From: Acidobacteriota bacterium
GTDB taxonomy: Bacteria > Acidobacteriota > Terriglobia > Acidiferrales > UBA7541
Reading direction: 5' to 3'
DNA length: 64,000 nt
NCBI GenBank assembly: GCA_013289585.1
Contig: JABCZR010000023.1
Coordinates: forward strand, 1 to 64,000
Position numbers and translations under genes: made by a program. Shown here piece after piece: positions 33,014 through 61,640 of this stretch. How positions within the stretch are numbered: position 1 is the first letter of the stretch; each line of letters opens with the position of its first letter. The notes beneath the pieces are model-generated. The model made no database searches, was not told the DNA's origin, and saw only the letters and a program-made list of their open reading frames with translations.

Positions 33014-33939
33014 CGGAGCAGCAGGGCTGGCCCAGAATTGCCGTCGTGGGTGCGGGCGCCGTAGGCGGATACTTCGGCGGGCTGCTGACCCGTGCGGGCG
33101 CGCCGGTGGCGATGATTGGCCGGCCAGCGTTCGTCGAAGCGGTGAAAAAGAACGGACTTTTCCTCGACACACTGCAGTTTCAAGAGAGCGTCCAAGTAGA
33201 AGCGTCAACCGAGATCGACGCGGTGCGCGGCGCGGAAGTGGTCCTCTTCTGCGTGAAGACTACGGACAACGCGACGACCGCGCGGGCATTGGCTCCGCTG
33301 CTTGTCCCCGGCACGCTGGTCCTCAGTTTTCAAAACGGCGTTGATAATGTGGAACAGATTCGCGCCGCGGCTGCCATCGAAGCGCTTCCCACCGTCGTCT
33401 ATGTGGCGGCGTCCGTGCCGGAACCCGCCCGGGTAAAGCATGTTGGCCGTGGCGACCTTGTTTTCGGGCCAACAAACGAAAGGACGGAACGCGCGGCTGC
33501 TCTCTTTACGCGCGCCGGCGTGCCTTGCCGCATCTCGGAAAATATAGAAGGAGAGCTCTGGACCAAGCTGATCTGGAATTGCGCGTTGAATGCCGTCTCT
33601 GCACTCGGGCGCGCGAAATACGGCCAGATTGCCGCGAGCGCCGACGCGCGGAAGGTAGTGGAGACGGTTGTGGACGAGGTGCTATCCGTCGCACACGCCG
33701 CAAATGTACACCCGCCGGGGCTGGAAGATCCCAAGACCGCCATCGCGGGCGCTTTCAAGATCGCCACGCAAATGGCGGAGGCGCTTTCGTCCACAGCCCA
33801 GGACATGAATCGCGGCAAGCGCACGGAGATTGATTCGCTGAATGGCTTCATTTCGCGCCGAGGGGCGGAACTAGGCGTTCCCACTCCCGTCAACCACGCT
33901 CTATATGCGCTGGTGAAACTCGCCGAGGGGCGCTCCTAA
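33010..33939 (+). CDS. Ketopantoate reductase family protein (PanE/ApbA-like)
   Basis: A 309-residue NADPH-dependent oxidoreductase. The N-terminal Rossmann fold has VVGAGAVGGYFGGLLTRAG; FCVKTTDN and FQNGVDN follow; and the helical C-terminal domain has GELWTKLIWNCALNAVSAL with the conserved Lys, then SSTAQDMNRGKRTEIDSLNGF. These match 2-dehydropantoate 2-reductase, which makes pantoate for coenzyme A, but many relatives act on other 2-oxo acids. The GTG start overlaps the previous stop (GTGA), so it is coupled to the aminotransferase, which hints at a shared small pathway. It could be panE. Confidence 0.88.
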   Translation: MTEQQGWPRIAVVGAGAVGGYFGGLLTRAGAPVAMIGRPAFVEAVKKNGLFLDTLQFQESVQVEASTEIDAVRGAEVVLFCVKTTDNATTARALAPLLVPGTLVLSFQNGVDNVEQIRAAAAIEALPTVVYVAASVPEPARVKHVGRGDLVFGPTNERTERAAALFTRAGVPCRISENIEGELWTKLIWNCALNAVSALGRAKYGQIAASADARKVVETVVDEVLSVAHAANVHPPGLEDPKTAIAGAFKIATQMAEALSSTAQDMNRGKRTEIDSLNGFISRRGAELGVPTPVNHALYALVKLAEGRS

Positions 33940-33963
33940 TCTCAATTCTGAAAAATGAGTTGT

Positions 33964-35676
33964 TTACCGGTCGTTCCGGTAATGAAAAGGGATGTGCACG
34001 ATGGCCTCGAGTTCCACCGGCGATCCTTGTCGGGTCGCAGGCCGGAATTTCCACTGGCTGAGCGCCACCATGGCGTTGGCATCAAGCTGCTCATCAATGC
34101 CGCGCACCAGTTGGATGCTGTCCACAGTTCCGTCGCGGCGGAGCACAGCGTAGAGCACCACTTCTCCATCGATGTGTTCGCTGATGAGCGCGGGCGGGTA
34201 TTTCGGGTCGACCTTTCGCAACGGAGAAGGCCCAACAAGGTCCGACGAACTGAGCCGCGGTCCATCGGCGCGTGTGCGCAGCTCAGAGAAGTTGAGAATC
34301 CAGCTCCCCGTCGCGCTGTTCAGGTTGGGCATATTGACCAGCAGCTTATAAATCCTTTTCGACGCGAAGATTTGTTCCGGTTGCGCGCCCGCGGGGAGGT
34401 CCGCGAAATTCGGCGGCCCTGTTCTTTCCGGCGCGTCATCAATTCTTGCGTGCGCTTCCGGCTTGGTAATCAACGTGTGTGGCGTGGGCGCGGCGATTTT
34501 CGAAGCTCCACCAAGGCCGGAAACGCCGTTGTTAGCCGGTGGATTTCCGCCGCTGATGCTCACATCCATCGTATTTTTTCCGCCGCCGTTGCCCGTTCCG
34601 GCTCCTCCGGTGCTCCCGGGACTGCCGCCTGCTCCCCCGGTTGGGCCATGCGTTGCGTCTGGCGAGCCGCCTGGAACTCCCGGCTGCTTCCCTTCCGGCG
34701 AAATGGAAATACGCGCGGCAAGATTTCCCTGCGGCGGCTGAATCGCCGGCGCCGGCGGGCCAGGAGTTGCTGACAGTGCAATGAATGTCGCTGAATTTCC
34801 ATTCGCGGCGCTGGCTTGCGCGGCGCCTACTTCCGGCGCAGGTTCGGCGTCTCCTGTTTGCGCGCGCGGCGCGACTCGCGGCGGTGCCCCGGCGTTCAGT
34901 TCCAGTTTTGGGCGCGCAGGTGCGTTGGGCGAGGCGGGCAGGGCGAGGTCCCCGAGTTTCTGGTCAAAGGCGGGCAAATCCGGCGGCGGCGCGGTCGTCG
35001 CTGTGGCGGTTCGATGTTCGCGTGGGCGCAGCTTGGCAAGTGTCTCTTCGCTGATCTGGATCCTCGGCCGCGCAGGCCCCGGCAACTGCTGGAGCTGAAC
35101 AATGTTCGGCAGATTCGGAAGAATTTTTGGAGGCTCCGCGGGCGCGGCGGAATTTATAAGAGTTTGACGCGCATGGTTCGGATGTGCCGGGTCAGTGAAA
35201 ATGCGCTGCCGTGGATGGAAAGCGTCAGCGCCTTCCTGCGGGAGCGGTTTTTGCGGTTCGCCGCGGGGACTGGGCTTGGCTTTGGGAGTCTTCGTCGCCA
35301 GGAGAGGCAGATCGGTGATCGGCCCCGACCAGGTGAGTTCCGTGTTATCGAACGCGGGATTGTGGCGGGGCGCGGCCCGAAATTGCGGGAAGGGCATGAG
35401 AAGAAAAGCGACATGCCACAACGCCGCGGCAATCAAGGCACGGCCGGGAATACTTCTCTTGACCCAGCTGTCCTTGAAGAAACTTTCCGCCAGAAAATCC
35501 TTCGGAACGTTGGTCCAGGTGAGAACGGCGCGAACGCTGCTTCCGATGCCCTGATGAAAACTTCCCCAAGCGAGGTCAAGCTTCGGTTCGTGCCCGGTTT
35601 GCGGGCGCGCGGGAGCGGCAGGAGTGGTGGCCTGTCCCAAGAGATCCAATGCCCTGCCGACCTGGCTCAAAGGCAA
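33964..35676 (-). CDS. TonB-family protein with a long low-complexity region
   Basis: A 570-residue protein. After about 70 cytoplasmic residues comes one membrane helix (RALIAAALWHVAFLL, about 78-94), then a very long Pro/Ala/Gly/Asn-rich region, and a C-terminal TonB domain (about 480-565): VDPKYPPALISEHIDGEVVLYAVLRRDG then MVALSQWKFRPA. The TonB fold normally reaches across the periplasm to energise outer membrane receptors; this window carries two such receptors. The start codon is a TTG with AAAGGG before it and is the least certain part. It follows rsmD on the same strand with a 148-base gap holding a palindromic repeat. Confidence 0.87.
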   Translation of the reverse strand: MPLSQVGRALDLLGQATTPAAPARPQTGHEPKLDLAWGSFHQGIGSSVRAVLTWTNVPKDFLAESFFKDSWVKRSIPGRALIAAALWHVAFLLMPFPQFRAAPRHNPAFDNTELTWSGPITDLPLLATKTPKAKPSPRGEPQKPLPQEGADAFHPRQRIFTDPAHPNHARQTLINSAAPAEPPKILPNLPNIVQLQQLPGPARPRIQISEETLAKLRPREHRTATATTAPPPDLPAFDQKLGDLALPASPNAPARPKLELNAGAPPRVAPRAQTGDAEPAPEVGAAQASAANGNSATFIALSATPGPPAPAIQPPQGNLAARISISPEGKQPGVPGGSPDATHGPTGGAGGSPGSTGGAGTGNGGGKNTMDVSISGGNPPANNGVSGLGGASKIAAPTPHTLITKPEAHARIDDAPERTGPPNFADLPAGAQPEQIFASKRIYKLLVNMPNLNSATGSWILNFSELRTRADGPRLSSSDLVGPSPLRKVDPKYPPALISEHIDGEVVLYAVLRRDGTVDSIQLVRGIDEQLDANAMVALSQWKFRPATRQGSPVELEAIVHIPFHYRNDR

Positions 35677-39358: not shown

Positions 39359-39512
39359 TCTTGCGAATGCCGGCGAACAAACGGCGCATTCTCTTTATAT
39401 CATTCCCGCCAGGAACCTTCCTGTGTGCGGCTGTCCCAAGCGAAACTTGCTTCCCAGCCACACGTATCGTTAGAGTGTGGAATCCGCGTCTTTTTGCCGA
39501 ACAGGAGGCCTG

Positions 39513-42500
39513 GTGGCCGGAGAGCGTCTGACTGGTTCCGAGAAGCGCGCGCTATTTTTCTGGGTGGTTTTCGGTATCCTCGGCGCGCTGTTCGCTTACA
39601 AATATTTCTTCCGCGCCTTCCCGGAAGCTTCGGTCAACTTCAAAGTCTCTCGCGAAGAAGCTCTGGCGCGTGCGCAAAACTTCGTAAGCGGCCTCGGCGA
39701 AAACGTCAGCGGCTACCAATCCGCAATCGTTTTCGATGTGGATGACAACGCCAAGGTCTACCTCGAACGGGAACTCGGACAGCAACAAGCCAACCGGCTG
39801 ATGGCTTCGGAACTGAACATCTGGTTCTGGGATGTGCGTTTTTTCAAACCGAAGCAGGAAGAAGAATTTCGCGTTCGCGTAAGCCCCGCCGGGCAGATCG
39901 TCGGCTACACACACATCGTGCCCAAATCGCAGGCAGGCGCTTCGCTCGATCGAGCCGACGCGCAGGTTACGGCGCAGAACTTCCTCGCCAACAAGCTGGG
40001 CATGAACTTAAGTAGTTGGGATTTTCTGTCCGAAGAGGCAAATTCGGAGAAACAGGCTGCCCGCCTCGATTGGTCCTTCACCTGGGAGAAGCATGGTTTC
40101 CGATCTAAGGACGCGCCCTATCGCTTGAAGGTCCGCCTGCAGGGCAACAGCATCGGCGAGAGCGAAGAATTCCTGCAAGTCCCCGAGGCCTGGGAGCGTG
40201 GTTACAAAAGACTCCGCTCTGGAAACGATACGCTCGCCCTGGTCTTCATCGTCCCTTATCTCTTGCTCCTGGGAATCGCTGTTTGGCTGGCGATTCAGCT
40301 GACGAAGAGCGGGAAAACAACGTGGGGCGCAGCAATCAAGCTTGGCGCGCTCGCGGCGACTCTCTTGTTCCTGCAGTCGTTGAACGACTGGCCGCTCTGG
40401 GGCGCGGGCTACGACACCAAGGACGCCTACTCCACATTTATCCTGCTGCAGGTCGGGCGCGCGCTTCTGCTTGCCCTGGCAACTGCAATCACCATTACCC
40501 TGGTCCTGCCTGCCGCCGAGCCGCTCTATCGCAGCCTACAGCCTGGCCAGCTCCGCCTATACCAGGTCTTTACGCGGCGTGGCTTGCGCTCCAAGGAGTT
40601 TTTCTCGGCCTCCGTCGTCGGGTTGTGCCTCGCCGCGGCCCACATCGGTTTTCTCGTCGCCTTCTACATGGTCGCAACGCAATACGGAGCCTGGGCGCCG
40701 CAGGAATTAAATTACTCCGACAGTGTCAACACGCTATTCCCCTGGATTTCCGGCGTAGCTATTGGACTGCTGGCTTCGATGAACGAGGAATTCACTTTCC
40801 GGCTCTTTGCCATTCCGTTTTTCATGCGCGTCACGCGCTCGCGGTGGATCGCTGTTATCGTGCCAGCCTTTCTCTGGAGCTTTCTGCACAGCAATTATCC
40901 GCAGGAGCCGGCCTACATCCGCGGCATTGAAATCGGAATCATCGGAATCGTCGCGGGAATCGTGATGTTGCGCTGGGGTATCATGGCCACGCTCATCTGG
41001 CACTACACCGTGGATGCTTCGCTGGTCGGCTTGCTCCTGATTCGCTCGAACAGTCTCTATTTCAAAATTTCCGGCATCGTCGTGGCTGCGGCGGCAGCAG
41101 CTCCGTTGCTCTTTGCCTGCGCCTCGTACCTGGCCCGTGGCTCGTTCGAAAGCGACGAGGATCTCCTCAACCGCGCCGAGCCCGCTCCGGAAATTGATTT
41201 TGCCAGCGAACCCGTCCCCTCCACTTCCGAAATCAGAACAAGTGGCTACACCGCACTCGCGCCAAGCATGATCGTATTCCTTGCCGTATGCCTTTTATCT
41301 GGAAGCGTTTTGACTTGGCGCCTGAAGCCGCCGTCCATCGGCGAATACCTGAAACTCTCGGTTGATGCGCACACCGCCCGCGCCCGCGCCGACCAGATCC
41401 TCAGCCAGCGCGGCCACGATCCAAATTCCTGCATTCACGCCACTGTCTTCGCCGATATCGCCGACCCCCTGGTCAACGAATACCTGCGGCAGCGCATCGG
41501 CATCGCGGGAGTGAACGCCATCTACTCGGGGCCTGTTCCGGCCGCGCTCTGGCGTGTGCGCTACTTTCGCGATGGCCAGACAGAGGAGTTCGCCGTCATC
41601 CTGCGCCCCGATGGATCACTGCACTCCGTCCGGCACACGCTTGCCGAGGAAACGCCCGGCGCTTCGCTCGCAAAAGAAGAAGCGGTTGCGCAGGCCGAGA
41701 AATTCCTCCGCGATGAAAAAAAACTCGACCTGAAGGATTGGACGCTTGTCGAATCCAATTCAGACAAACGGCCGCATCGCATCGACCACACGCTGACTTG
41801 GCAACAGATCGAGCCGCTCGAACCTGCGCCGTCGTCAACTTCCAGTACTGCGGATCTAGCACATGCCCGCATCGAGGTGCAGGTGCTGGGCAACGAAGTC
41901 ACGAACTATCGCACGTACATCAAAATTCCCGACGACTGGCGGCGCATACAGGAAGAGCTTCCGCTTTATCGGACCATCCTCACCTATGTTCTCCCTTTTC
42001 TTTTCTTCGCCGCACTAGGCCTCATTCCGCTGATCGTCCTGCTGAAAAATCTGAAATCAGAAGACGCCCGATCGATTCCCTGGAGACGCATCGGATTTAT
42101 TTCCCTTTGGGGACTGTTCGGATTTCTTCTGGTTTTTCTGTTGGGCAACCGGATCGCTGCGTTTTTGAATGCCTACAATACCGCCGTTCCACTCAAGCTG
42201 ACGTTTGGAATACTTGCTATCGCGGCGCTGCTGGGTGCACTTTTTACTCTGGGCCGCATCGCGCTACCGTTTGGCGTAGCGTGGTATTTCGCCGCGCGAG
42301 CATTCGGTCAAGAGCGTCTGCCCGGCAGCGCTCGCATGCCCGGCGAATATTATCGTGATGCCTTGTGGATCGGCTTGGGAGGAACCGCAGGGCTACTTGG
42401 CCTGGAAAGTCTTCTAAACACGGTTTCGACCTACTGGCCCACGGTGCATCGCTCGCTTCCCGCCAGCTTCGGATTGGACTTCGATGCCATTCTGCCTGCC

Positions 42501-42926
42501 GCCTCGATCGTGGGAAGCAGCTTGATCGAAGGTCTGTTCATGACGGGGGTGGTCGTAGCTCTCGCCTCTTTCTTGGCTGCACAAGTGCGCCCGCCCTGGC
42601 TACGGATTTTAATCTTGCTATCTGGCGCCCTGGCGCTCCTTGGCGGAGGGTGGGGCAGCCCCGCGGATCTTGCCAAACAATTCCTGGCGCGCCTGATTCT
42701 GCTGGCGGTGCTCGCTTTCGGCGTGCAGCGCTTAATGCGCCTCAATCTTCTCGGCTGTTTCCTGATCGTAGCGGGGACTTCAATATTCGCTGGCGCCGCC
42801 GAGTTGCTGGCGCAACCAGATTCGTTCTACCGGGCAAATGGCTACGCTCTCCTTCTGGTTCTTGCCTTATTTTTCGCCTGGCCCTTCGCTGCCTGGCGTC
42901 TGCGTGCAGCCGCGGCCAGCAGCTGA
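39513..42926 (+). CDS. Giant CPBP-family membrane protease with internal duplication
   Basis: A protein of about 1137 residues, far longer than the usual 200-300 of CPBP (CAAX-like) intramembrane metalloproteases. Order: one N-terminal helix, an extracytoplasmic region of about 200 residues (PepSY-like, with ASLDRADAQVTAQNFLANKLG), then a polytopic block with the protease motifs EExxxR (Glu425, Glu426, Arg430), His459 in SFLHSNY, and His497/Asp501 in HYTVDA. A second extracytoplasmic copy follows (ASLAKEEAVAQAEKFLRDEKK) and then a second polytopic block that lacks those motifs. GTG at 39513 is used because AGGAGG lies four bases before it; a GTG at 39477 is also in frame. Confidence 0.85.
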   Translation: MAGERLTGSEKRALFFWVVFGILGALFAYKYFFRAFPEASVNFKVSREEALARAQNFVSGLGENVSGYQSAIVFDVDDNAKVYLERELGQQQANRLMASELNIWFWDVRFFKPKQEEEFRVRVSPAGQIVGYTHIVPKSQAGASLDRADAQVTAQNFLANKLGMNLSSWDFLSEEANSEKQAARLDWSFTWEKHGFRSKDAPYRLKVRLQGNSIGESEEFLQVPEAWERGYKRLRSGNDTLALVFIVPYLLLLGIAVWLAIQLTKSGKTTWGAAIKLGALAATLLFLQSLNDWPLWGAGYDTKDAYSTFILLQVGRALLLALATAITITLVLPAAEPLYRSLQPGQLRLYQVFTRRGLRSKEFFSASVVGLCLAAAHIGFLVAFYMVATQYGAWAPQELNYSDSVNTLFPWISGVAIGLLASMNEEFTFRLFAIPFFMRVTRSRWIAVIVPAFLWSFLHSNYPQEPAYIRGIEIGIIGIVAGIVMLRWGIMATLIWHYTVDASLVGLLLIRSNSLYFKISGIVVAAAAAAPLLFACASYLARGSFESDEDLLNRAEPAPEIDFASEPVPSTSEIRTSGYTALAPSMIVFLAVCLLSGSVLTWRLKPPSIGEYLKLSVDAHTARARADQILSQRGHDPNSCIHATVFADIADPLVNEYLRQRIGIAGVNAIYSGPVPAALWRVRYFRDGQTEEFAVILRPDGSLHSVRHTLAEETPGASLAKEEAVAQAEKFLRDEKKLDLKDWTLVESNSDKRPHRIDHTLTWQQIEPLEPAPSSTSSTADLAHARIEVQVLGNEVTNYRTYIKIPDDWRRIQEELPLYRTILTYVLPFLFFAALGLIPLIVLLKNLKSEDARSIPWRRIGFISLWGLFGFLLVFLLGNRIAAFLNAYNTAVPLKLTFGILAIAALLGALFTLGRIALPFGVAWYFAARAFGQERLPGSARMPGEYYRDALWIGLGGTAGLLGLESLLNTVSTYWPTVHRSLPASFGLDFDAILPAASIVGSSLIEGLFMTGVVVALASFLAAQVRPPWLRILILLSGALALLGGGWGSPADLAKQFLARLILLAVLAFGVQRLMRLNLLGCFLIVAGTSIFAGAAELLAQPDSFYRANGYALLLVLALFFAWPFAAWRLRAAAASS

Positions 42927-43171
42927 ACTCCAGCCTGGATCCTCGCCGCCGGAAGCAACCTCCCGCCCGAGGGGGTACATCTGGCTAATCAGTGAAACAA
43001 AATCCACAGCTCCCCCGTTGTTATAGTGGGAAGCACTGCTCACCCAAGAGCTAAGGGTCCGTCCAAATTGGGTGGTCACGTGGCGCTCCGTGTGTAGCCG
43101 GTGGCTGCAATGCAGGTTAAGGTGTTGTTTTACAACGGGCAACACCGCTCCACGCGAAGAGAAAGCGAAAA

Positions 43172-43849
43172 ATGCCGCTTCCCAGATGGGCTCTGGCTTT
43201 GGCCGATGACAACGGTCGCTCGGGTAGCATCAACGCCGCCCTGGCCTCGGTGACCTCTTTGCCCAACCTTGATGAGCGGGCACTGGTGGCTCAAGCGCAA
43301 ACGGGTGACCGTGGCGCTTTCGAGGAACTCGTTCGCCGTTTTGACCGCGATGTTCTGCGTCTCGCGCTGAATCTCATGAAGCGGCCGGAAGATGCCCGCG
43401 ACGTTTATCAGGAAGCCTTCCTCAAGGTTTATCGCAATCTCCACCGCTTTCGTTTCGAATGCAGCTTTTACACCTGGCTCTACCGCATTGTCACCAACGT
43501 TTGCCTCGACCACCTGCGCCGCCGCCAGGCGCGCCCCGAAGACCAGGCTCCGGAGCTGAACACCGGCCATCACGAAGAAGGCATCACCGATTTTTTTGAA
43601 CGCCAGCGGGAACATCGCCCCACGCAGGATCCCGAACGGACGCTCTTCGGCCAGGAAATTAAAGCGCGCATCGCACTGGCCATGGAGCGCCTCTCCCCGC
43701 GCGAGCGTATAGTCTTTGAAATGAAGCATTACCAGGGCTTGAAGCTGCGCGCCATCGGCGACGCGCTCGGCACCACTGAGGAAACCGTGAAGAATTCGCT
43801 TTTTCGCGCAACGCGCAAACTCCGTAGCGAACTGGGAGGCTTGCGATGA
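43172..43849 (+). CDS. ECF-type RNA polymerase sigma factor (first locus)
   Basis: A 225-residue group IV sigma factor. Region 2 (about 35-118) has [36 protein letters not shown] and [20 protein letters not shown], the core-binding and -10 recognition parts. Region 4 (about 165-221) has [45 protein letters not shown], a helix-turn-helix for the -35 element. There is no region 1 or 3. Its stop overlaps the ATG of the next gene, an anti-sigma factor, by four bases, so the two are produced together. It should switch on the envelope genes behind it, probably including itself. Confidence 0.95.
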
Positions 43850-44952
43850 GCGCTTTTGACAAGCACCTTCGCTGCGAGGACATCGCTCCGATTCTCGTGT
43901 TCTATGTTTGTGATGAGGTCAGCGATAAGGAACGCAAACAGATCGAAGCGCACCTCGCGAGTTGTGCGTCCTGCTCCGCGCAGATCGCGGAAGAACGCGA
44001 ATTGCAGGAAGCCTTCGCCATGGGGGTGCAACCTGCCGATGAGCTGGATTCTGCCGGCACACTCCTTGCGCAATGCCGCAGCGAGCTGGCGGAGAAACTC
44101 GATGATCTTGCCGCGCCGCCGGTTCAGGAACACTGGCGGCCGTTCGGCTGGCTACGCCGCTGGATGGCGCTGCGACCAGCCTGGAGCGGCGCGGTGCTCG
44201 TACTCTTCGGCGTTCTGCTGGGCACTGAATTGATTCCCTGGCTGCAATCTGTAAGTCCTGAGAGCCCCAATGGGCAGACCGTGAACGTGATGGCCGGGCC
44301 GAAATTGAGTGATGAGCAGCTTTCCAAAATGACGGTCGCAGGCATCTCCTCTTCGCCCTCTTCCGGCTCCACGCCGGGCACCGTAAAGCTCCAGCTTAGC
44401 GCCGAGCAACCCATGGTGCTTTCCGGCAACGCTGACGACAACGATATGCGCCGGGTGCTGACGTATGTGCTCGCAAACGGCGAACGTTTCGACGCCGGTG
44501 TGCGCCTCGATTGCCTGGATGCCTTGAAGGGTGGAGTGCGGGATCAGCAAGTACGCCACGCTTTGATCGTTGCGGCGCGCCAGGATCAGAATCCGGCCGT
44601 GCGCATGAAAGCCCTGGAATCGCTGCGCGACGCGGCGACGGATGACGCGGTGCGTCAAGTGCTGCTGGAATCGCTGGAACGCGATGCGAATCCCGGTGTG
44701 CGCGTCGAAGCTGTTAACCTGCTGGTTCGATCCCTCGACCACGAAACATCCAGTTTGCCTGCAATCGCGCCTGAGGCCCCGCCGATCCCGGATACGCCAC
44801 CGTCGCTCGCGCCGGTGGCTCCCGTAACTGACCCCTCGGTGGATCATGTAATTCGCGTATTGCAGCAGTTGCAGCGCAAGGATCCCAGCCGCTACGTGCG
44901 GTTGCGCAGCGCCGCCGCCTTGCGTCAGATCGGGCCGCGCGACGTGCAGTAG
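43846..44952 (+). CDS. Anti-sigma factor with zinc finger and HEAT-like repeats
   Basis: A 368-residue membrane anti-sigma factor. The N-terminus has the zinc-finger (zf-HC2) pattern: an early Cys in RCEDIAP, then HLASCASCSAQI with H-x3-C-x2-C, which holds the sigma factor. One membrane helix follows (about 113-130). The outer part is unusual: about 120 residues of helical HEAT-type repeats (RRVLTYVLANGERFDAGVRLDCLDAL, RHALIVAARQDQNPAVRMKALESLR, VRQVLLESLERDANPGVRVEAVNLL), suited to bind a protein, plus a Pro-rich C-terminal segment and a final helix pair. It overlaps the sigma gene by four bases and leads into the DUF4097-like genes. Confidence 0.9.
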   Translation: MSAFDKHLRCEDIAPILVFYVCDEVSDKERKQIEAHLASCASCSAQIAEERELQEAFAMGVQPADELDSAGTLLAQCRSELAEKLDDLAAPPVQEHWRPFGWLRRWMALRPAWSGAVLVLFGVLLGTELIPWLQSVSPESPNGQTVNVMAGPKLSDEQLSKMTVAGISSSPSSGSTPGTVKLQLSAEQPMVLSGNADDNDMRRVLTYVLANGERFDAGVRLDCLDALKGGVRDQQVRHALIVAARQDQNPAVRMKALESLRDAATDDAVRQVLLESLERDANPGVRVEAVNLLVRSLDHETSSLPAIAPEAPPIPDTPPSLAPVAPVTDPSVDHVIRVLQQLQRKDPSRYVRLRSAAALRQIGPRDVQ

Positions 44953-44981
44953 TTCGTCACAGGGTAAACGACATTCGCTCG

Positions 44982-46796
44982 ATGATAAACAAACTCCTCC
45001 GACCGATTCGATCTTCTTCCGCTCGCCGCAGTGTTTTCTTCAAGACAGCCGCGCTGTTTTCTTGTGCTGCGATTCTGCCGGCTCTCTGTTTAGCTGGCCC
45101 CGGGATCGAGCGCTCGGGCATCGAGCCTGCAAAAAATCCAGAATCGCCCGGAGCTCATTCCTCGGTTGTTCGCGCCGGCACTCTGGAAACCAGGGACGGC
45201 CTGACACTTCGGCTGACGACTGACCTCGGTTCCGTGAAAGTTTTCCAGCTGGAAGCCGGTGCCGCGCCAGTGGTGCGGTACACCGTACACATTGAAACCG
45301 ATGCCCGGGGCCCAGCGGCGCAGCAACTCCTGGACAATTATTCTCTCAAAGCGCGCGCCCTCGGCTCCGGCGTGGAAATCACCGGTGCGCTTCCCGCGCA
45401 GGCGGCCCACCAGACCGATGCTCAGTTCTGGGTGCAGTTTGAAGTAACTGTCCCGGCCGGCTATAGCGTCGAAGTGAACACCGAAGCCGGCGACATTGAA
45501 ACACAGGATATCGGCGGTACGGCGAGCCTCCACACTCAGGGTGGAAACATTCGTGCTGGGCGAATCGGCGGCTCTGCTCTCCGCGATGCGTCGTCCGGCC
45601 GCTCTGTCGCCAGGCTGGAGACGCAAGGCGGACACATCCAGGTTCTCGATGTTGCAGGTGACCTCACGGCTTTCACGGCTGGCGGTCACATCAACGTAGG
45701 CAATGTTGCCGGAGACGCTTCGCTGCGGACCGGTGGCGGTCACGTGCGCGCCGGACAGATTGGCGGGCGCGCCGAGTTGGAAACTGCTGGCGGCAATATC
45801 ACCGTTGCGCGCGCTGGGAGCTATGTCAGCGTACAAACCGGCGGCGGCCAGATTGACTTCGGCGAAGTGCACGGCTCAGTTCATGCCCAGACGGGTGGCG
45901 GCGGTATCCGTGTCATGTACGTCTCGGGTCCGATGGAAGTGGAATCCAGCAGTGGAAGCATCTGCTTGACTCGCGTGGCTGGCGCTCTCCAAGCTGCCAC
46001 TTCGGGCGGCACCATTACTGCGTGGATCAATCCGGATGCGCCCACCGGGGGCGGAAACGTGCATCTCGGTGGCCCCTCGCAGCTGGCCTCCGGCAATGGC
46101 GACATCATCGTTTACTTGCCGCGAAATCTCGCTGCAACCATCGATGCCACCGTGGCCACCGGTGGCGAGCGACACATCGAAGCCGACCCGGCCTTACATC
46201 TGATCATTCAGGGATTGAACACTGGGACGGGCCCCGTGCATGCCACCGCGGTTTTGAATGGCGGAGGCGCGCCGCTCAAATTGCGCACTACCGGCGGGAA
46301 GATTCGCCTTCAGTTCTTGGATTCGGAGGTCGCTCTGCGCGAATCCCTGATTCGCGAACAGTTGGACCGCATCAATCTGCACCTCAAGGAATACCAGGTC
46401 GAGCCCGGTTTCACCTCCGAACCCGCGTCCACGGCCTCTCCCGTGCCCGACCCTGCCAAGACGGATTGGCTGGAAAGCTGGCTGATCAGCCTGGAGCTGG
46501 CGTTTCGCGGCGGCCTTCGTGAAGATTCTCTCGAATTTCAGAAGCGGCTGGTTGCCGCGCCCAAGCCGACTTATCCAGCGCTCGCGCAGCGCGCCGGTTT
46601 GCAGGGGAATGTCGTCCTTCAACTGCGCCTTACAAAGGACGGCCGAGTCGAAGTTCAAAAGCTGGTTGAAGGTGATCCAGCCCTTGCCGACGCCGCCATC
46701 GCCGCCATCAAGCAATGGCGAGGCAAACCGCTATGGGTCAATGGCAAGCCGGTCGAGGTGATCTCGAACGTGACATTTAATTTTCAGTTGCACTGA
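44982..46796 (+). CDS. DUF4097-like beta-solenoid protein with C-terminal TonB domain
   Basis: A 604-residue exported protein (signal sequence about residues 20-38). After an N-terminal beta domain comes a solenoid with an exact 18-residue period: GG-x-I/V repeats starting at residues 216, 234, 252, 270, 288, 306, 324 and 342 (GGHIQ, GGHIN, GGHVR, GGNIT, GGQID, GGGIR, SGSIC, GGTIT). The C-terminal 80 residues are a TonB domain (PTYPALAQRAGLQGNVVLQLRLTKDG and IAAIKQWRGKPLW). DUF4097-like (toastrack) domains occur in envelope stress proteins; joining one to TonB is unusual. It is the third gene of the sigma/anti-sigma locus. Confidence 0.85.
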   Translation: MINKLLRPIRSSSARRSVFFKTAALFSCAAILPALCLAGPGIERSGIEPAKNPESPGAHSSVVRAGTLETRDGLTLRLTTDLGSVKVFQLEAGAAPVVRYTVHIETDARGPAAQQLLDNYSLKARALGSGVEITGALPAQAAHQTDAQFWVQFEVTVPAGYSVEVNTEAGDIETQDIGGTASLHTQGGNIRAGRIGGSALRDASSGRSVARLETQGGHIQVLDVAGDLTAFTAGGHINVGNVAGDASLRTGGGHVRAGQIGGRAELETAGGNITVARAGSYVSVQTGGGQIDFGEVHGSVHAQTGGGGIRVMYVSGPMEVESSSGSICLTRVAGALQAATSGGTITAWINPDAPTGGGNVHLGGPSQLASGNGDIIVYLPRNLAATIDATVATGGERHIEADPALHLIIQGLNTGTGPVHATAVLNGGGAPLKLRTTGGKIRLQFLDSEVALRESLIREQLDRINLHLKEYQVEPGFTSEPASTASPVPDPAKTDWLESWLISLELAFRGGLREDSLEFQKRLVAAPKPTYPALAQRAGLQGNVVLQLRLTKDGRVEVQKLVEGDPALADAAIAAIKQWRGKPLWVNGKPVEVISNVTFNFQLH

Positions 46797-46879
46797 GCGG
46801 CAGCAACCTCAGCGCACGCGAATTTCGTTCAGGTCCTCGTTTCTTGAAGTTAGCAGGTACGAAGAGGGGGTAGAACGTT

Positions 46880-47644
46880 ATGCTGCGTCATTCTTTCCGC
46901 GCGACTGCTTTGCTCATTCTGGCTCTGGCCGTGGTCGGGGCTGTTCCCACTCATGCCATCACCAAGGAGTTCAATCAATCCTATCCGCTTCAGCCCGGGG
47001 GTTCCTTTGAACTCCAGAACGTCAACGGGGCCGTTGAGGTGCAGGGATGGGACCGCAATGAGATCGAAATTCATGCCGTCAAAACCGCCAAGCAGAAAGA
47101 AACTGACCTCGAGCGCGTCACGATCGATGTAGACGCCAGGCCCGACGCGGTCTCCATTACCACGCGCTATCCTCAGAATGAAGGCGTCGAAGTGGCGGTG
47201 GAGTACACCATCCACGTCCCGCACGGCGCGCGCCTCGAGCATCTGGGCACCGTGAATGGCACATTGCGCATCGCCGGCGTTGAACTGGTGGAAGACGTCC
47301 ACACTGTGAACGGAAATATTGAAGTCTTCGATGCCGGCGGAAGCGTCCACGCGCACACTACCAACGGCAATGTGCGCCTGGAGCTCGCGCACATCCGCGA
47401 CAAGAATGGCTTCACCGCCGAAACAACCAATGGTTCTCTGGTGCTTGCCGTGCCTTCCGACACCCAGGCTGATCTCGAAGCTCGCTGCCTCAACGGCAAC
47501 TTCTATTCGGAACTCCCTGTCGCCATCGAGAGCTCGGAACGTCCCCGCGAGATTCACGGCAAATTGGGTCACGGCGGAGTTCCGATTCATTTGCGCACCA
47601 TCAACGGCGGGATTCGAATCGTGATTCTTCGGTCGACGGTTTAG
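46880..47644 (+). CDS. Exported DUF4097-like (toastrack) protein
   Basis: A 254-residue exported protein. A signal peptide (about 1-26, ending THAIT) is followed by a beta-rich region: GGSFELQNVNGAVEVQGWDRNEIEIHAVKTA, then GTLRIAGVELVEDVHTVNGNIEVFDAGGSVHAHTTNGNVRLELAHI and TTNGSLVLAVP, the repetitive strand-turn pattern with 'NG' or 'NGN' at each turn that marks the toastrack fold. It lies between the solenoid-TonB gene and the PDZ gene on the same strand and probably in the same transcript. It should act in the periplasm or at the outer face of the membrane. Confidence 0.87.
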   Translation: MLRHSFRATALLILALAVVGAVPTHAITKEFNQSYPLQPGGSFELQNVNGAVEVQGWDRNEIEIHAVKTAKQKETDLERVTIDVDARPDAVSITTRYPQNEGVEVAVEYTIHVPHGARLEHLGTVNGTLRIAGVELVEDVHTVNGNIEVFDAGGSVHAHTTNGNVRLELAHIRDKNGFTAETTNGSLVLAVPSDTQADLEARCLNGNFYSELPVAIESSERPREIHGKLGHGGVPIHLRTINGGIRIVILRSTV

Positions 47645-47683
47645 CGTTTGCTGCGTCTAAATCTGCAGGAGGGTGGGACGACA

Positions 47684-48697
47684 ATGTACAAGCGAAATTT
47701 GCTTTTCGCCGGCGGGGTTGCGGCGCTCAGCGTGGCGCTGATCGCGCTGCCCGGCACTTCAGCAAAAACACAGAGCCCCCAGGATGCCAGGATCGCGCAG
47801 CTGCAACAGGAAATTGAAATCTTGAAAATGGAGCGAAGCACTCCGCAAGCCATTGTGGTGCAGGAGGAAGGCCGCGAGCAACAGGAAGTGAGTCCGCTCA
47901 TTCAAAAAGACGATGTCACCATTTTCGTGGACGGTGATGGTTCCGGCTGGCTTGGTGTCGAGACGCGTGAAGTGACCGCCGACAAAGCTAGGGAACTCAA
48001 GCTCCCCGCCGAACGTGGCGTCGTCCTCGGAAAGATTGTTCCGGATAGCCCGGCAGCCAAGGCAGGCCTCAAGGAAAATGATGTTGTGACGGAGATCAAC
48101 GGCCAGCGTGTCGAAGGCGCTGCGCAATTCCGCCGCATGGTCCATGAAATCCCTGCGGGCCGAAGCATTCAGCTTACCGTCTGGCGGGATGGCCGCTCTC
48201 AGACTCTGAGCGCAACGCTGGGTAAGTCTGAGGAGCGGCGGCAGAGCCTGAAAATGATCGCGCCGTCAGCCGGTGCCTTTGCCTTCCGCATGCCCGACAT
48301 GCCGGAAATCCCCGATATCCCTTCGATGGAGTGGAACAACGGAATGCTCTCCGGCGGACAGCCTCGCCTCGGCATTGATGCCGAAGATCTCAGCGGCCAG
48401 CTCGGCGCATTTTTTGGCGCGCCCGAGGGCGAAGGAATTCTGGTCCGTGACGTAAACGCCGGCTCACCCGCTGAAAAGGCTGGACTGAAAGCCGGCGATG
48501 TCATCACTTCGCTTGATGGTGACCGCATCCGCTCGGTTAGCGAGCTTCGGGAAAGGCTCTCCTCCAAGCGCGATGACAAAGAGAAGACGGTAAAGCTCGG
48601 CGTCCTTCGCAACAAAAGCTCTCTCTCGCTCAATGTAGAACTGCCTCCGCCGCCGGCAAAGGTCAAGCACCCGATGACCCATCGCACCAATATCTGA
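47684..48697 (+). CDS. Protein with two PDZ domains, exported
   Basis: A 337-residue exported protein. After an N-terminal hydrophobic signal (about 5-22) and a short coiled coil (ARIAQLQQEIEILKM) come two PDZ domains: one with GWLGVETREVTADKAREL and GVVLGKIVPDSPAAKAGLKENDVVTEINGQRV, the other with PRLGIDAEDLSGQLGAFFG and GILVRDVNAGSPAEKAGLKAGDVITSLDGDRI. There is no protease domain, so it is a periplasmic adaptor and not a DegP-type enzyme. AGGAGGG lies about nine bases before the ATG at 47684. It is the last gene of the locus, ahead of a strong terminator. Confidence 0.9.
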   Translation: MYKRNLLFAGGVAALSVALIALPGTSAKTQSPQDARIAQLQQEIEILKMERSTPQAIVVQEEGREQQEVSPLIQKDDVTIFVDGDGSGWLGVETREVTADKARELKLPAERGVVLGKIVPDSPAAKAGLKENDVVTEINGQRVEGAAQFRRMVHEIPAGRSIQLTVWRDGRSQTLSATLGKSEERRQSLKMIAPSAGAFAFRMPDMPEIPDIPSMEWNNGMLSGGQPRLGIDAEDLSGQLGAFFGAPEGEGILVRDVNAGSPAEKAGLKAGDVITSLDGDRIRSVSELRERLSSKRDDKEKTVKLGVLRNKSSLSLNVELPPPPAKVKHPMTHRTNI

Positions 48698-48712: not shown

Positions 48713-48745
48713 AAAGGCCCCCGGCTAGGTCTGGGGGCCTTTTTT
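48713..48745 (+). terminator. Rho-independent terminator after the envelope locus
   Basis: AGGCCCCC (48715-48722) pairs with GGGGGCCT (48733-48740), followed by a six-base T-run. It closes the sigma/anti-sigma/DUF4097/PDZ transcript. Confidence 0.92.
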
Positions 48746-57235: not shown

Positions 57236-58714
57236 ATGAATCGTAGCAAAGCTCTGCTTCTCATTCTCCTGACCGCCTCGCTTGCCTTAGCCGCCTGCAG
57301 CGGTCCATCAGGCTCGCATGTCTGCACCGTCAACTGCACCACCGGCGATGCCACCGTCAGCTTCACGCTGGCCGCCGTGCCCATCGCTCCTCAGCCGGCT
57401 ACCTCCATCCTCTCGTTCGCCGTCACCCTCAACGGGATCAAGCTGACTCCGGCTACGGGCGGTACGGATGTTAACGTTCCCCTTAACACTTCCACCTTTG
57501 TTGTTGATTTGACGCGTCTCCAGAGCGACTCCGCCTTCGCCGGCCAGGTGCTGGCAAACATTCCTGCCGGAACCTACAACCAGATCACCGTTGGAATAGC
57601 GAGCGCCGTCGTTACCTATTGCACCAACGCGGGCGTCTCGGCTGGCTGTGACCCACTCAGTATCAAGCAGGTCAGCGAGCCTTTCGCGACGATTACCCCC
57701 GCCACTTTCTCGGCGACCTTCACCTCTGGCCAGCAAACCGGCATCCAGATCCGCTTTGACATCGGCAAAGCCTTGACCATCAACACGGTCACCCAAGCCG
57801 TAACAGCGGTAAACCTCGGCGCCACAAATGTCATGACCACCGTCGCGCTCCCCCCGCTTCTCTCCAGCCTCGCCACTGGCCAGTTGGATTTCGTCGAAGA
57901 CTTTACCGGCGTAGTCACCGCCGCAAGCGCCACGTCCGTCACCGTGCAAACATCCTTGCGTGGCTCCATCACCGCAAATGTAACGCCAACTACTATCGGG
58001 TCTCCAAATTGCGTCATCGACAACAAGGCTTGCGTGGCAACAGTAGGTCAGATCGCCAGCATTGACACGGTCCTCAACAACGATGGCACTTTCTCTTTGC
58101 TGGAATACGACCCCCTCTCCGAGACCAGTGCCGACGTCGTCGAAGGAATAGTCACCGCCACACCGCTCACGTCCAATCAATTCGATATCGTTGCAAATGA
58201 TATCCTCGTCGCCTCGCTCGGCAGCGTCATCGGAACCAGCCTCGGCGTCGGCGCACCTGTACACGTCACACTGAACCTCGGCACGAATTTCTTCGTCATA
58301 GACACCAAAGGCTTGACGCCCATTCCGGCAACAAACTTCCAGGGCAGTCAGTCCGCAACCGATATCCTTCCTGGCCAAACCGTCGCCCTTCGCGTGACCA
58401 GTTTCACCGCGGCGACTGCCACCGTCCCCGCCCAAATCACTGTGGACGCTGTCGTCCTCCGCTTCACTCGTGTCGCAGGGGCCGTCTCGTCCGCCACTAG
58501 CCTGACTTTTAACATGCAGTCCTTGCCGCTCTTTTTCGGCCCCACAAACTCGTTTCAAACCCAGCTTTACAGCGGCTCGCCAAGCACCTATTTCGACGGC
58601 ATAACGCCGGGAACTAATCTGACGGTCGGCAATACTGCCGCGACGCGCGCGCTGTACTTCGGCCCGACGGTCACACCCGCATTCACCGCCGCCAAAGTCC
58701 GCCAGTTCCAGTGA
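57236..58714 (+). CDS. DUF4382-like lipoprotein
   Basis: A 492-residue lipoprotein. The signal ends in a lipobox LALAAC at about residues 16-21, where the Cys would be lipidated. Two beta-rich regions follow: about 35-200 resembles DUF4382 (ATSILSFAVTLNGIKLTP, NIPAGTYNQITVGIAS), and about 215-490 contains repeats in the style of DUF5666 (DFTGVVTAASATSVTVQTSLRG, VVEGIVTATPLTSNQFDIVAND). It is rich in Thr, Val and Ala with few charges. ATG at 57236 is used, with GGGGTG upstream. Function is unknown; it should lie on the outer or inner membrane surface. A strong terminator follows. Confidence 0.85.
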   Translation: MNRSKALLLILLTASLALAACSGPSGSHVCTVNCTTGDATVSFTLAAVPIAPQPATSILSFAVTLNGIKLTPATGGTDVNVPLNTSTFVVDLTRLQSDSAFAGQVLANIPAGTYNQITVGIASAVVTYCTNAGVSAGCDPLSIKQVSEPFATITPATFSATFTSGQQTGIQIRFDIGKALTINTVTQAVTAVNLGATNVMTTVALPPLLSSLATGQLDFVEDFTGVVTAASATSVTVQTSLRGSITANVTPTTIGSPNCVIDNKACVATVGQIASIDTVLNNDGTFSLLEYDPLSETSADVVEGIVTATPLTSNQFDIVANDILVASLGSVIGTSLGVGAPVHVTLNLGTNFFVIDTKGLTPIPATNFQGSQSATDILPGQTVALRVTSFTAATATVPAQITVDAVVLRFTRVAGAVSSATSLTFNMQSLPLFFGPTNSFQTQLYSGSPSTYFDGITPGTNLTVGNTAATRALYFGPTVTPAFTAAKVRQFQ

Positions 58715-58737
58715 TTTCTCCGCCTCCGCAAAAGGCA

Positions 58738-58780
58738 AACGGGCCCGCTGACGATCTCATCAGCGGGCCCGTTCTCTTTT
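58738..58780 (+). terminator. Rho-independent terminator after the DUF4382-like gene
   Basis: A 14-bp perfect stem AACGGGCCCGCTGA (58738-58751) / TCAGCGGGCCCGTT (58760-58773) with an 8-base loop, then CTCTTTT. Confidence 0.93.
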
Positions 58781-58860
58781 CCCTTTAGGAATTTCTAATT
58801 CCCGACAGCTCCGGATCTCCTCTGTCTAACAACCAATCACTGGAAACCCATAACTGTCTT

Positions 58861-60549
58861 TCACGCCGGCTGCACCCCACCCATCGTCGTACTGGGCGGC
58901 AGCGGCGGCGTATACGGCCCCGACGGCATTCCCGGCGCAATCACTGGCTGCAACCGCCGGTAAACCACCAGCGAAATCGCGCCAATCCCCCAGAACGCTG
59001 CACCATACTTGAACACCCAGCCCACGTGCGGAATCATCGTGCACAAACGCAGCAGCACAAAACCCACCACCATCCGCCCGACCAACGGCCAAATCTCCTG
59101 CGTGCGCCCCATCAGCCATTGCCCGATCAGCGCGGCCACCACAATCTGCCCGAAATGCAACGCCGCGAACCATAGAAAGAGCGTCGAGATCCCAATGAAC
59201 AGTCCGACCACCGTGACGCACGCAATCAATGCCGCGATTGGCAGGCCGCACCCCACCAGTATCCCCAGCCCCGCCGCCGCGCCATATTGCTCCGTGGCTT
59301 TCACCGCTTCTTCCGAGAAGTTCGGCATCAGCGCGAACAACACCAGCCCGAACAAGATGTATGCCGAGGCCCAGATCACTTGCCAGATGTAATAGCTGCT
59401 GTCGCGATATTCCTTCCTATGCTCCATCTGCTTGAATTCCACCGGCGACGCCAGCTTCGCCGACGATGAAACCTCCGCCGGCTTATCGCCTTCAAAGTGA
59501 ATTGGCCCGCCCACCTGCGCGTTCGCGCCGATAATCAACGTGTGCCCCTTCTCCCGGATGCCGCCCTCCACGGCGCCATTCACGTTAATTCCAGTTCCAA
59601 AAAAGAGAATGTCCCGGCCCACGTGCCCGTCAATCGCTAGCGAGTCGCCAAACATGGTAACGCTGCCTCCGACTTTTCCCGTCGACTCCACCGTCACCAC
59701 ATCGCCGAACCACATCATGTTTTTCCCCACGCTTCCGGAAATCACTGCGGTGTTCCCTGCCGAACGCACATTGCCGTCCACCGTCCCGCGAACCTGCAAA
59801 TACCTTCCTGCGCTGATTACGTCTCCCGTCACCTGCCCGTTAATTTCAATATCTTTCCCTGCCGCAAATACATCGCCCTCCACCCTGCCTTCGATCTTTA
59901 CGCGCTCGCCGGAAAGATAAACATCGCCTTTGATGATTTCATCCTTGTTCACCGTGGGGCTCTGCCCTTTGCGAAACTCCGTCGCCGAAGCCGCCGGCGG
60001 CATCGACACCACCGTGCACAAACCAGCGAAGACCAGCGCCAGCGCTGATCCGCGCCGGATGCGCCGCCGGAAGACCAGCGCACCCAGTCCCGCCAGCGTC
60101 AGCATTGCCAGTACCTCGAGGAGTGTGATCACGGATTGCCATCCTTTCCACATGGTGCCCTGAAAAATCAGCAGGCCCAGCAGGTTCGATCCGCCGAATC
60201 CCGCCTGCTCCAACTGCGTCTGCCAGAGCAGGATATATTGTGTATAAAATGCGTAGACTCCCGTTGCCGCCAGCCCAAACACCAATCCCCAAATCCATTG
60301 CATCGATCGCCGCGCTTTTTCCTGGAATTGCGCCAGCCGCGATGGCAGCGGCTCGTCTTCTTCCAGCATCGCGCGCGTCAACAGCCGCGATTCGCGCTCC
60401 ATCGCGCGCAGCAGCGTCCGGCAAGCCACGCATTCCTGCGTGTGCGCCGACACTTCCAGCCCACGCGCGCGGTCCAATTGCCGCTCGATATACAGCAGGC
60501 ACGTCATTTCGTCCAGATGCTTCGATTTCTCTTCCGGTGTCTGGCTCAC
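58861..60549 (-). CDS. Anti-sigma factor fused to a bactofilin-like beta-solenoid
   Basis: A 562-residue protein. The N-terminus has a zinc-finger anti-sigma domain (HLDEMTCLLYIERQLD, then HTQECVACRTLL with H-x3-C-x2-C). Three hydrophobic segments follow (about 86-106, 137-157, 170-188). A regular beta-solenoid of bactofilin or 'polymer-forming' type fills about 195-370, with V-x-G-D/S-V repeats such as RVEGDVFAAG, QVTGDVISAG, TVDGNVRSAG, KVGGSVTMFG. A C-terminal block of four helices (about 390-510) follows, then a Pro-rich tail. With three helices before it, the solenoid should be outside the cytoplasm. It overlaps the sigma gene by four bases, so it is that sigma's regulator. Confidence 0.85.
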   Translation of the reverse strand: MSQTPEEKSKHLDEMTCLLYIERQLDRARGLEVSAHTQECVACRTLLRAMERESRLLTRAMLEEDEPLPSRLAQFQEKARRSMQWIWGLVFGLAATGVYAFYTQYILLWQTQLEQAGFGGSNLLGLLIFQGTMWKGWQSVITLLEVLAMLTLAGLGALVFRRRIRRGSALALVFAGLCTVVSMPPAASATEFRKGQSPTVNKDEIIKGDVYLSGERVKIEGRVEGDVFAAGKDIEINGQVTGDVISAGRYLQVRGTVDGNVRSAGNTAVISGSVGKNMMWFGDVVTVESTGKVGGSVTMFGDSLAIDGHVGRDILFFGTGINVNGAVEGGIREKGHTLIIGANAQVGGPIHFEGDKPAEVSSSAKLASPVEFKQMEHRKEYRDSSYYIWQVIWASAYILFGLVLFALMPNFSEEAVKATEQYGAAAGLGILVGCGLPIAALIACVTVVGLFIGISTLFLWFAALHFGQIVVAALIGQWLMGRTQEIWPLVGRMVVGFVLLRLCTMIPHVGWVFKYGAAFWGIGAISLVVYRRLQPVIAPGMPSGPYTPPLPPSTTMGGVQPA

Positions 60550-61154
60550 GAAGCTCCTCCCGCAGCCAACGCGCTGCCGCCTTCCAGGGCCTGCCGCAGT
60601 TCATGCCGGGCACGCAGCAGCACCACGCCCACAAAGGCGCGCCGCACTCCCAGCGCATCGGCGATTTCGTCGTAGCTCATGTCTGAGTAATAGCGCATCA
60701 CCAGCGCCATGCGCGCCCGCGCGCCCAGCTTCTCCAGCGCTTTGCGCACTTCCTCGCTGGTGCGCTGCTCGATCAGCCGTTCCAGTTGGCTGGGGTCCGG
60801 ATGCTCCAACGGCACATTTTCCAGGTCCCCGGTTTCCTTGTCCTGCCTTGTCCTCCGCCGCCGCAGCGAATCCCAGCAGTGGTTCGCCGCCACTTTATAC
60901 AGCCAGGCGGTAAAAGACCGCGTCGTATCGTACTGGTTCAATTTTCCGCGTAATTTCATGAATACTTCCATCGTGGCGTCTTCCGCGTCTTCCCTTGTCG
61001 GCAGCGCGCGCCGGCAGAATCGGAAAATCGCCGGAGCGTAGTCGTGATACAGCTGCCCCCAGGCCTCGGCGTCACCCGCCCTGGCCCGGGCGATCACCTC
61101 CGTCGGCTCCATCGTTCCCGGCGCACTCATCCGGCCTGGTCTCTGTGTTTCCAT
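60546..61154 (-). CDS. ECF-type RNA polymerase sigma factor (second locus)
   Basis: A sigma factor of up to 202 residues with region 2 (AEAWGQLYHDYAPAIFRFCRRALPTREDAEDATMEVFMKLRG and FTAWLYKVAANHCWDSLRRRR) and region 4 (LEKLGARARMALVMRYYSDMSYDEIADALGVRRAFVGVVLLRARHELRQAL). The start is not settled: ATG at 61154 is given, but ATGs at 61130 and 61112 are in frame and the first has no clear binding site. The stop overlaps the anti-sigma gene by four bases. This is the second sigma/anti-sigma pair in the window and probably controls envelope genes. Confidence 0.93.
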   Translation of the reverse strand: METQRPGRMSAPGTMEPTEVIARARAGDAEAWGQLYHDYAPAIFRFCRRALPTREDAEDATMEVFMKLRGKLNQYDTTRSFTAWLYKVAANHCWDSLRRRRTRQDKETGDLENVPLEHPDPSQLERLIEQRTSEEVRKALEKLGARARMALVMRYYSDMSYDEIADALGVRRAFVGVVLLRARHELRQALEGGSALAAGGAS

Positions 61155-61640
61155 AGACTAGTACGCAGCCCACCCTCAAAAACTTACGCAAACTTAACAA
61201 TTCGCTATAACGCAATACCCGGCTATCCCTCCCCGGGTCAGCACTCTACCAGAAACACCTCGGCGGGCTAAGTCTCCCAGCAATATCCCTCTCCGCCGCC
61301 CTGCACAGCTCATTCTGTGGCCCCATCACGCCCGCCAACCATCACTTTTTCCGCTACTCGCTATGCAATTCATTATCCTTGACACTTGCAGCATTTGCGG
61401 AGTAAAACTCGCCTTACTAAGTCAGTTCGGCTTGTATGTTGTGGCGTTTTTTGAACCGAAAAGAAAGCGAGCTGGTCCGGGGAGCTTGTTTTCATCTTCT
61501 GCTGTAGGTTCAGATCTTTGAGCCGATAGCGAACGGTTCGCCATGCGATCTTTCAGTCATTTTTTCGTTCTTCAAAGCATGCGGCTGCAGAGCCGTATGT
61601 GCGTGGTGTTTTTTTGATCTCGATGAGGGGGGTGTTGCTT
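61155..61640. other. Intergenic region between the sigma gene and the last receptor gene
   Basis: 486 bases between divergent genes. It should hold promoters for both. On the plus strand TTGACA (61379-61384) is followed after 18 bases by TAAAAC (61403-61408), a candidate with a weak -10 that would give a leader of about 225 bases for the receptor gene. I see no RNA gene or repeat. Confidence 0.4.

Follow-up and report, generated by a model that had tools for sequence, protein, structure and literature searches.

The operon and its layout

The window analysed here, the first 64,000 nucleotides (nt) of contig JABCZR010000023.1 (assembly GCA_013289585.1) from an Acidobacteriota bacterium (Terriglobia; Acidiferrales; UBA7541), carries an operon that we propose to be an envelope-stress system built around an extracytoplasmic function (ECF) sigma factor. 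According to open reading frames (ORFs), Pfam and NCBIfam, five co-directional genes on the forward strand encode in turn the sigma factor, its anti-sigma factor, a toastrack (DUF4097) protein that ends in a TonB domain, a second toastrack protein and a protein with two PDZ domains, and are followed by a single terminator. The sigma and anti-sigma ORFs overlap by 4 nt (ATGA), as they do in all 17 loci of the genus where both starts are resolved, and the gaps after the anti-sigma, first toastrack and second toastrack genes measure 29, 83 and 39 nt. The start of the PDZ gene was set at the ATG at 47684, which is preceded by a ribosome-binding-like GGAGG, in place of the TTG at 47648 given in the ORF list. 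The terminator, at 48713-48742 on the same strand, is a 12-pair G+C-rich stem-loop with a T-rich tail, the strongest of 10 terminator-like sites found in the region against 7.4 expected.

A previous interpretation based on the letters of the DNA (the sequence-only reading) had assigned to 43172-48697 five same-strand genes with small gaps, ended by one terminator. The operon it observed is real: all ORFs lie where it had placed them, and no separate internal promoters emerged, since a promoter scan found no sigma-70-type site across the operon region and the sole other ECF-like match within the operon (45780) is inside coding sequence. The promoter and conserved leader described below (42994-43171) fall outside the interval originally considered. 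An Rfam search of the operon region returned no family.

The sigma factor and its HEAT anti-sigma factor

The first gene (43172-43849, forward strand) encodes a protein of 225 residues in which Pfam recognises sigma regions 2 and 4 above cut-off (Sigma70_r2, 70.9 bits; Sigma70_r4_2, 46.3 bits) and lists no region 3, which is the ECF layout. Its identity to 18 homologues of the genus is 84-92%. The anti-sigma factor (43846-44952, forward strand) combines an Hx3Cx2C zinc finger of the zf-HC2 type (residues 10-43; 27.5 bits, cut-off 22.2), a transmembrane (TM) helix around residues 111-135, with one main hydrophobic peak at residue 115, and HEAT repeats at residues 199-302 and 330-362 (HEAT_2, 40.2 bits, cut-off 27.7), so that the HEAT-like domain of the sequence-only reading is borne out by Pfam. 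E24, H36, C40 and C43 are invariant across 29 diverse homologues. Anti-sigma factors of this class typically sequester their sigma factor through the zinc finger, and the single TM helix would leave zf-HC2 in the cytoplasm and the HEAT domain outside the inner membrane.

An AlphaFold2 model of the anti-sigma factor displays helical repeats with a predicted local distance difference test score (pLDDT) of about 90 over the HEAT region and 69 overall. Foldseek returned nothing for this model at E <= 0.001, only generic helical-repeat proteins, and a sequence search in the PDB led to alphaRep designs, which inform on the fold and not on the function. At E <= 0.01 neither the anti-sigma factor nor the toastrack proteins matched RseA or RseB, and Pfam placed no FecR-type domain on the anti-sigma factor. 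To our knowledge, HEAT repeats as a candidate sensor on an anti-sigma factor are without precedent. In one metagenome-assembled genome (L045, 8001-9036) the anti-sigma gene is split across two frames, reflecting either a sequencing error or a pseudogene.

The toastrack and PDZ proteins

The two DUF4097-like neighbours that had been recognised earlier, one of them ending in TonB, both score above the Pfam cut-off of 22.9 bits. The first (44982-46796, forward strand; DUF4097, 28.4 bits) consists of a beta-helix at approximately residues 60-445 and a TonB C-terminal domain at residues 527-603 (TonB_C, 65.5 bits). Its model (pLDDT 77) matches the toastrack structure 4qrk in Foldseek (E 2.3e-6), and the modelled TonB domain superimposes on the TonB C-terminal domain 6i97_D with a TM-score (TMt) of 0.85 and a root-mean-square deviation of 1.3; the TonB C-terminal fold is genuine both in sequence and in predicted structure. 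This protein would be exported, because it carries an N-terminal hydrophobic stretch together with the TonB domain; in this stretch a signal peptide is not distinguishable from the TM helix through which ExbB/ExbD energise TonB proteins. The second toastrack protein (46880-47644, forward strand; 254 residues, DUF4097 33.1 bits) ends in RSTV and has a hydrophobic peak at residue 10, and it is probably exported as well. Both toastrack proteins also match LiaG, below cut-off.

The last gene of the operon (47684-48697, forward strand) encodes, as the sequence-only reading had it, a protein with two PDZ domains (337 residues, C-terminus RTNI; PDZ_2, 117.3 bits), which is probably exported, its hydrophobic peak being at residue 6. 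Pfam detects no protease domain in it, the only matches above cut-off being PDZ, besides a marginal DUF6288. Among solved structures, the best match of PDZ1 is the PDZ1 of DegP/DegQ, while the PDZ2 region is closest to the tandem PDZ domains of aq_1964, a homologue of site-2 proteases.

Promoter and leader

The usual form of ECF promoters is of the GAAC/CGT type, and the sigma gene appears to possess a promoter of its own of this type: GAAAC(-35)-N17-CGTT(-10), at 42994-43019 on the forward strand, begins 178 nt before its start. Among 30 loci of the genus, 27 have the form G[AG]AAC-N16-18-CGT[TC] upstream of sigma, mostly about 180 nt before the gene (range 112 to 222), while shuffle controls for the same 30 regions gave means of 0.31 (mononucleotide) and 0.44 (dinucleotide) and a maximum of 3 in both cases; L005 and L028 were excluded from the count, as their contigs are too short upstream. 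The 5′ leader (43020-43171) contains, in an alignment of the 30 loci, the conserved boxes GCTCAC..., CGTCCAA...TGGGTG and, before the start, GAAAGCGAA, and the box CGTCCAAATTGGGTGG is likewise conserved between promoter and sigma start. The fold of the leader has a z-score of -1.88, with 8 of 200 shuffles as good, which is not decisive, and the leader matched no Rfam family.

Distribution and conserved core

Conservation of the gene order in other acidobacteria had been set beforehand as a test, and the order does recur in the genus, the class and the phylum; because of this recurrence it represents more than chance. Within its own genome the anti-sigma factor has a single match, and at E <= 0.001 it has matches in 56 of 61 genomes, its own included, some of them weak and to other anti-sigma factors. 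Outside the phylum, the search was for close relatives: a scan with one genome per species yielded 19 loci, 18 titled Acidobacteria, Acidobacteriales or Acidobacteriaceae and one titled Betaproteobacteria. The latter contig (L047) carries the acidobacterial operon and probably belongs to a mislabelled genome.

In the genus, loci on long enough contigs share the order Rce1/CPBP-type protease, sigma, anti-sigma, toastrack/TonB, toastrack and PDZ. In the class, the PDZ profile matches 241 of 299 genomes at E <= 1e-20. Forty PDZ-anchored regions outside the genus were chosen among the best-scoring matches listed, mostly one per genus, and 31 of them contain sigma, HEAT anti-sigma and PDZ genes in order on one strand; three others are partial operons at contig ends (L148, L152, L154). 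Searched across the phylum at E <= 1e-15, a profile of 29 diverse anti-sigma factors matches 70 of 297 genomes, and 37 of the 70 lie outside the class. In 20 regions from other classes, chosen among the stronger of those 37 genomes, the order sigma, HEAT anti-sigma, toastrack is present in all 20 and a PDZ gene comes next in 5; Pfam confirmed the toastrack domain for two of these toastracks. Strong matches to the second toastrack are confined to the family and the order, and the TonB domain occurs in 16/16 proteins of the genus, 10/21 from the rest of the family and 0/28 outside it. The core would thus comprise the ECF sigma factor, the HEAT anti-sigma factor and an exported toastrack, and we infer the polarity by which PDZ, second toastrack and TonB are additions. 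The sequence-only reading had recognised neither the order nor the fusion; the order turns out to recur throughout the phylum, whereas the TonB fusion is a family-level feature outside the core.

Other units combining ECF sigma factors and toastracks were also seen. In the window's own genome, a LiaF-TM/toastrack protein has an ECF sigma factor and a zf-HC2 protein encoded close by on its strand (L194, C22, ~58069-61780), an arrangement that amounts to a Lia-like unit joined to an ECF pair, and a second unit, of ECF sigma, small ORF and toastrack, lies on a separate contig from the operon (L195, C16, ~33068-35528). Loci of this second unit are L195, L050, L051, L053, L054, L055, L059, L140-L148 and L150. 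Sister genera and families carry, next to the main operon and convergent with it, a toastrack gene, accompanied by sigma where the region reaches it.

Predicted regulon

The strict promoter pattern GAAACAAA-N14-CGTT has 92 matches in 36 genomes of the genus, compared with 25 for the reversed pattern used as control. Twenty of the 92 are located at the sigma operon, 30 at a gene for a TolC-family channel and 16 at units of a PadR regulator and/or ADOP permeases, the sigma-operon and TolC assignments having been made by eye from contig and position. The window's genome has exactly two strict matches, at the sigma operon and at TolC, against none for the reversed control.

The TolC gene had come to light in another genus-wide promoter scan. 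TolC-family searches gave 37 matches in 34 of the 36 genomes, and 27 of the 30 TolC loci read possess the promoter, including that of the window's own genome (C3:100104); where it is missing, at three loci, the genome has a second TolC copy that carries it. Judging the neighbours by eye, no evident efflux partner adjoins the own-genome TolC gene in the stretch read. As for the third group, in two relatives the PadR protein is TIGR03433 and the permeases are TIGR03434 (ADOP), two permeases and one PadR having been scanned, all above cut-off, and the remaining units were assigned by BLAST. The ADOP permeases also match MacB. At one unit of this type from the window's own genome (C2:139609), the promoter occurs as a variant whose spacer measures 16 nt.

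The promoter is common to the operon, TolC and the PadR/ADOP units, and therefore shared control is suggested, exerted by the sigma factor of the operon, which would then be autoregulated, or by another ECF factor of the same specificity. Its presence at these three places indicates that the operon is probably a self-activating envelope-stress response that controls export functions, and the ECF promoter and the predicted targets are consistent with a role in envelope or export stress.

Strict matches outside these groups include, in one genome each, an FtsX/MacB-type permease (L340), an outer-membrane barrel (L334) and a beta-lactamase-like gene (L293). A gene for the co-chaperone GrpE (L327, 43-627) has a strict ECF promoter at its start, again in one genome.

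A proposed mechanism and its proteases

We favour, with a probability of roughly 0.62, the reading that the operon forms an envelope-stress system of Acidobacteriota, based on an ECF sigma/anti-sigma pair and working as follows. At rest, the cytoplasmic zinc-finger domain of the anti-sigma factor would hold the sigma factor, while the HEAT domain, outside the inner membrane, would offer a sensing or docking surface. In the periplasm, the exported toastracks and the two-PDZ protein would act together with the HEAT domain, sensing or braking in place of RseB and DegS. Envelope damage would alter this complex and lead to removal of the anti-sigma factor, perhaps by proteolysis involving an RseP-type site-2 protease and the Rce1/CPBP protein encoded upstream. 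From GAAAC-N17-CGTT promoters, the freed sigma factor would then drive transcription of its operon and of the genes for the TolC channel and the PadR/ADOP permeases, raising export capacity and replenishing its own inhibitors.

The upstream gene (39477-42926, forward strand) encodes a putative intramembrane metalloprotease of the Rce1/CPBP type with a YcdB-like part (Pfam Rce1-like, 36.5 bits). EExxFR, FxxSFLH and HYTVD are kept in 12/12 homologous ORFs longer than 1100 residues, and we take EExxxR plus a catalytic His to define the Rce1/CPBP motif. The gene precedes sigma in 20 of 21 loci of the genus, the remaining contig beginning within sigma, and it does so as well in two further genera that belong to the family (L142, L143). 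PrsW and Rce1/CPBP belong to one superfamily, and the protein is a candidate site-1 protease for the anti-sigma factor. Elsewhere in the window's genome, one homologue of RseP (C3:280431; 308.6 bits) and two of HtrA score above cut-off.

A number of observations weigh against this envelope-stress reading. The remaining 26 strict promoter matches are unassigned and close to background, and would reflect chance or a wider regulon (24 were inspected, G034:C152 and G033:C138 being left out). A loose match occurs at only 4 of 21 PadR loci from the window's genome and three relatives, and at 1 of 6 in the own genome, where an earlier and broader promoter scan did not rise above its control (3 vs 2). 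Another ECF sigma factor could read the same promoter. Outside the genus the loose promoter form precedes sigma in just 2 of 16 loci, because of which the regulon was tested in the genus alone. Finally, partners vary: 6 of the 40 PDZ genes are solitary (L147, L164, L166, L170, L173, L174), one or both toastracks are absent in some families, and three regions of family f5 have no PDZ gene beside the operon. Taken together, the results support the earlier view of an envelope stress operon, and we infer envelope stress as the signal and an adaptor role for the PDZ protein.

Relation to known systems

The operon resembles the sigmaE/RseA-RseB-DegS-RseP and AlgU/MucA-MucB-AlgW systems of enterics and Pseudomonas in its ECF sigma factor, its one-TM anti-sigma factor, its periplasmic partners encoded by adjacent genes and its PDZ domains of the DegP and site-2-protease type, RseP and HtrA homologues being present in the window's genome. 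Unlike those systems, it has a zf-HC2+HEAT anti-sigma factor, no RseB match, a PDZ protein without a fused protease, no protease among its five proteins, and toastracks instead. With the Lia and phage shock protein (PSP) systems it shares the toastrack associated with a membrane-stress regulator; unlike them, its five proteins contain no PspA, PspC or LiaF-TM according to Pfam. A 2024 PSP survey mentions, for toastrack contexts, a sigma factor linked through the operon, and argues that the toastrack is intracellular (PMC11237479), whereas both toastracks of the present operon start with an N-terminus of the export type and one of them bears TonB. In the text of that survey, TonB, PDZ and acidobacteri have 0 occurrences, and 'heat' has 5, those examined not being HEAT repeats. 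The sigmaW/RsiW-PrsW-RasP system of Bacillus is likewise an envelope-stress ECF pair, in which PrsW is described as the site-1 protease of RsiW (PMC10202637). The operon differs from it in the HEAT ectodomain and in the toastrack and PDZ partners, and cleavage of the anti-sigma factor by the upstream protease is a candidate role only.

A literature search found no published operon of HEAT anti-sigma, toastrack and PDZ; it did not extend to the large ECF classification (10.1093/nar/gkaa1229), which may already list the sigma factor as a numbered group. The parts consulted of PMC3174227, PMC7406223, PMC10087280, PMC6411480 and PMC8999054 hold no description of it, and no worked-out envelope-stress pathway of Acidobacteriota turned up in the search.

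Alternative explanations

The most serious alternative is that the system regulates export or antimicrobial resistance, and not general folding stress, in the manner of Bce/Lia-type modules: the signal would be a membrane-active compound and the response TolC plus ADOP/MacB-like permeases. In its favour, the recurrent predicted targets are a TolC channel and PadR/ADOP units whose permeases also match MacB, the toastrack is the domain of LiaF and LiaG, and both toastracks have sub-threshold LiaG matches. However, we know of no established role for ADOP proteins, the resemblance of the PDZ domains to those of DegP and of a site-2 protease homologue points to protein quality control, the GrpE gene is among the unassigned promoter matches, and a scan with one strict motif may miss targets. 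We regard this explanation as possible but rather unlikely.

Much less probable is a TonB-linked sensing of the outer membrane, of the FecIR type, in which the TonB domain would contact an outer-membrane receptor and relay its occupancy via the toastrack to the HEAT anti-sigma factor. The genuine TonB C-terminal domain of every genus protein and the single promoter match at an outer-membrane barrel gene speak for it, but the anti-sigma factor is devoid of a FecR-type domain, no receptor appears among the recurrent targets, and, because the TonB domain is patchy in the family and missing outside it, signalling through a TonB receptor was down-weighted. Slightly more improbable still is an ordinary house-keeping operon, in which structural envelope proteins would be co-transcribed with the ECF pair with no sensing role; partner content does differ between families, but sigma and membrane anti-sigma stand at the head of the unit in the 20 other-class regions too, and the promoter is common to distant export genes.

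C-termini as possible ligands of the PDZ protein

We tentatively raise the doubtful idea that the PDZ protein acts as a protease-free hub that reads C-termini encoded in its own operon, namely those of the toastrack and of the PDZ protein itself, to which the anti-sigma factor would be added in f7 and similar families. These ligands would keep HEAT anti-sigma factor, toastrack and PDZ protein in a resting complex, from which misfolded outer-membrane C-termini would displace them. A precedent is provided by AlgW, whose PDZ reads the C-termini of outer-membrane proteins or of MucE (PMC8545111).

The second toastrack ends in I, L or V in 37 of 38 homologues, the tail in the family being mostly R[PS]xV-COOH. 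The PDZ protein ends in one of these residues in 37/37 operons with a second toastrack versus 23/43 without it (tails such as RTNI and RRAQL), a contrast with a Fisher value of 5e-7 that is uncorrected for phylogeny and whose 'without' group includes some contig-end cuts; open-ended ORFs and low-scoring matches were excluded from all C-terminus counts. In the family, the tails of both proteins are conserved behind more variable segments. The anti-sigma factor ends in F or Y in 31 of 81 cases and in 14 of 14 in family f7 (GTF/EVY-COOH), against 4.4% F/Y/W in the body of the protein, and the C-terminus of the first toastrack is aromatic in 2/63 and I, L, V or M in 1/63. Against the hub stand the sigma factor, which ends in I, L, V or M in 26/71 for no such reason (aromatic in 0/71), the fact that the tail pattern was noticed after looking and that its residues differ by lineage, and the Q at the end of the window's own anti-sigma factor.

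Significance

If the idea of the PDZ tails is true, the system would represent a protease-free way to read misfolded C-termini. Some ADOP permeases, which form a large family, and their PadR partners would be tied to a stress sigma factor, so that their function becomes testable. Acidobacteriota are abundant in soils, and the operon offers for them a concrete and widespread envelope-stress candidate with a putative HEAT sensor, toastracks that are probably exported and a predicted regulon.

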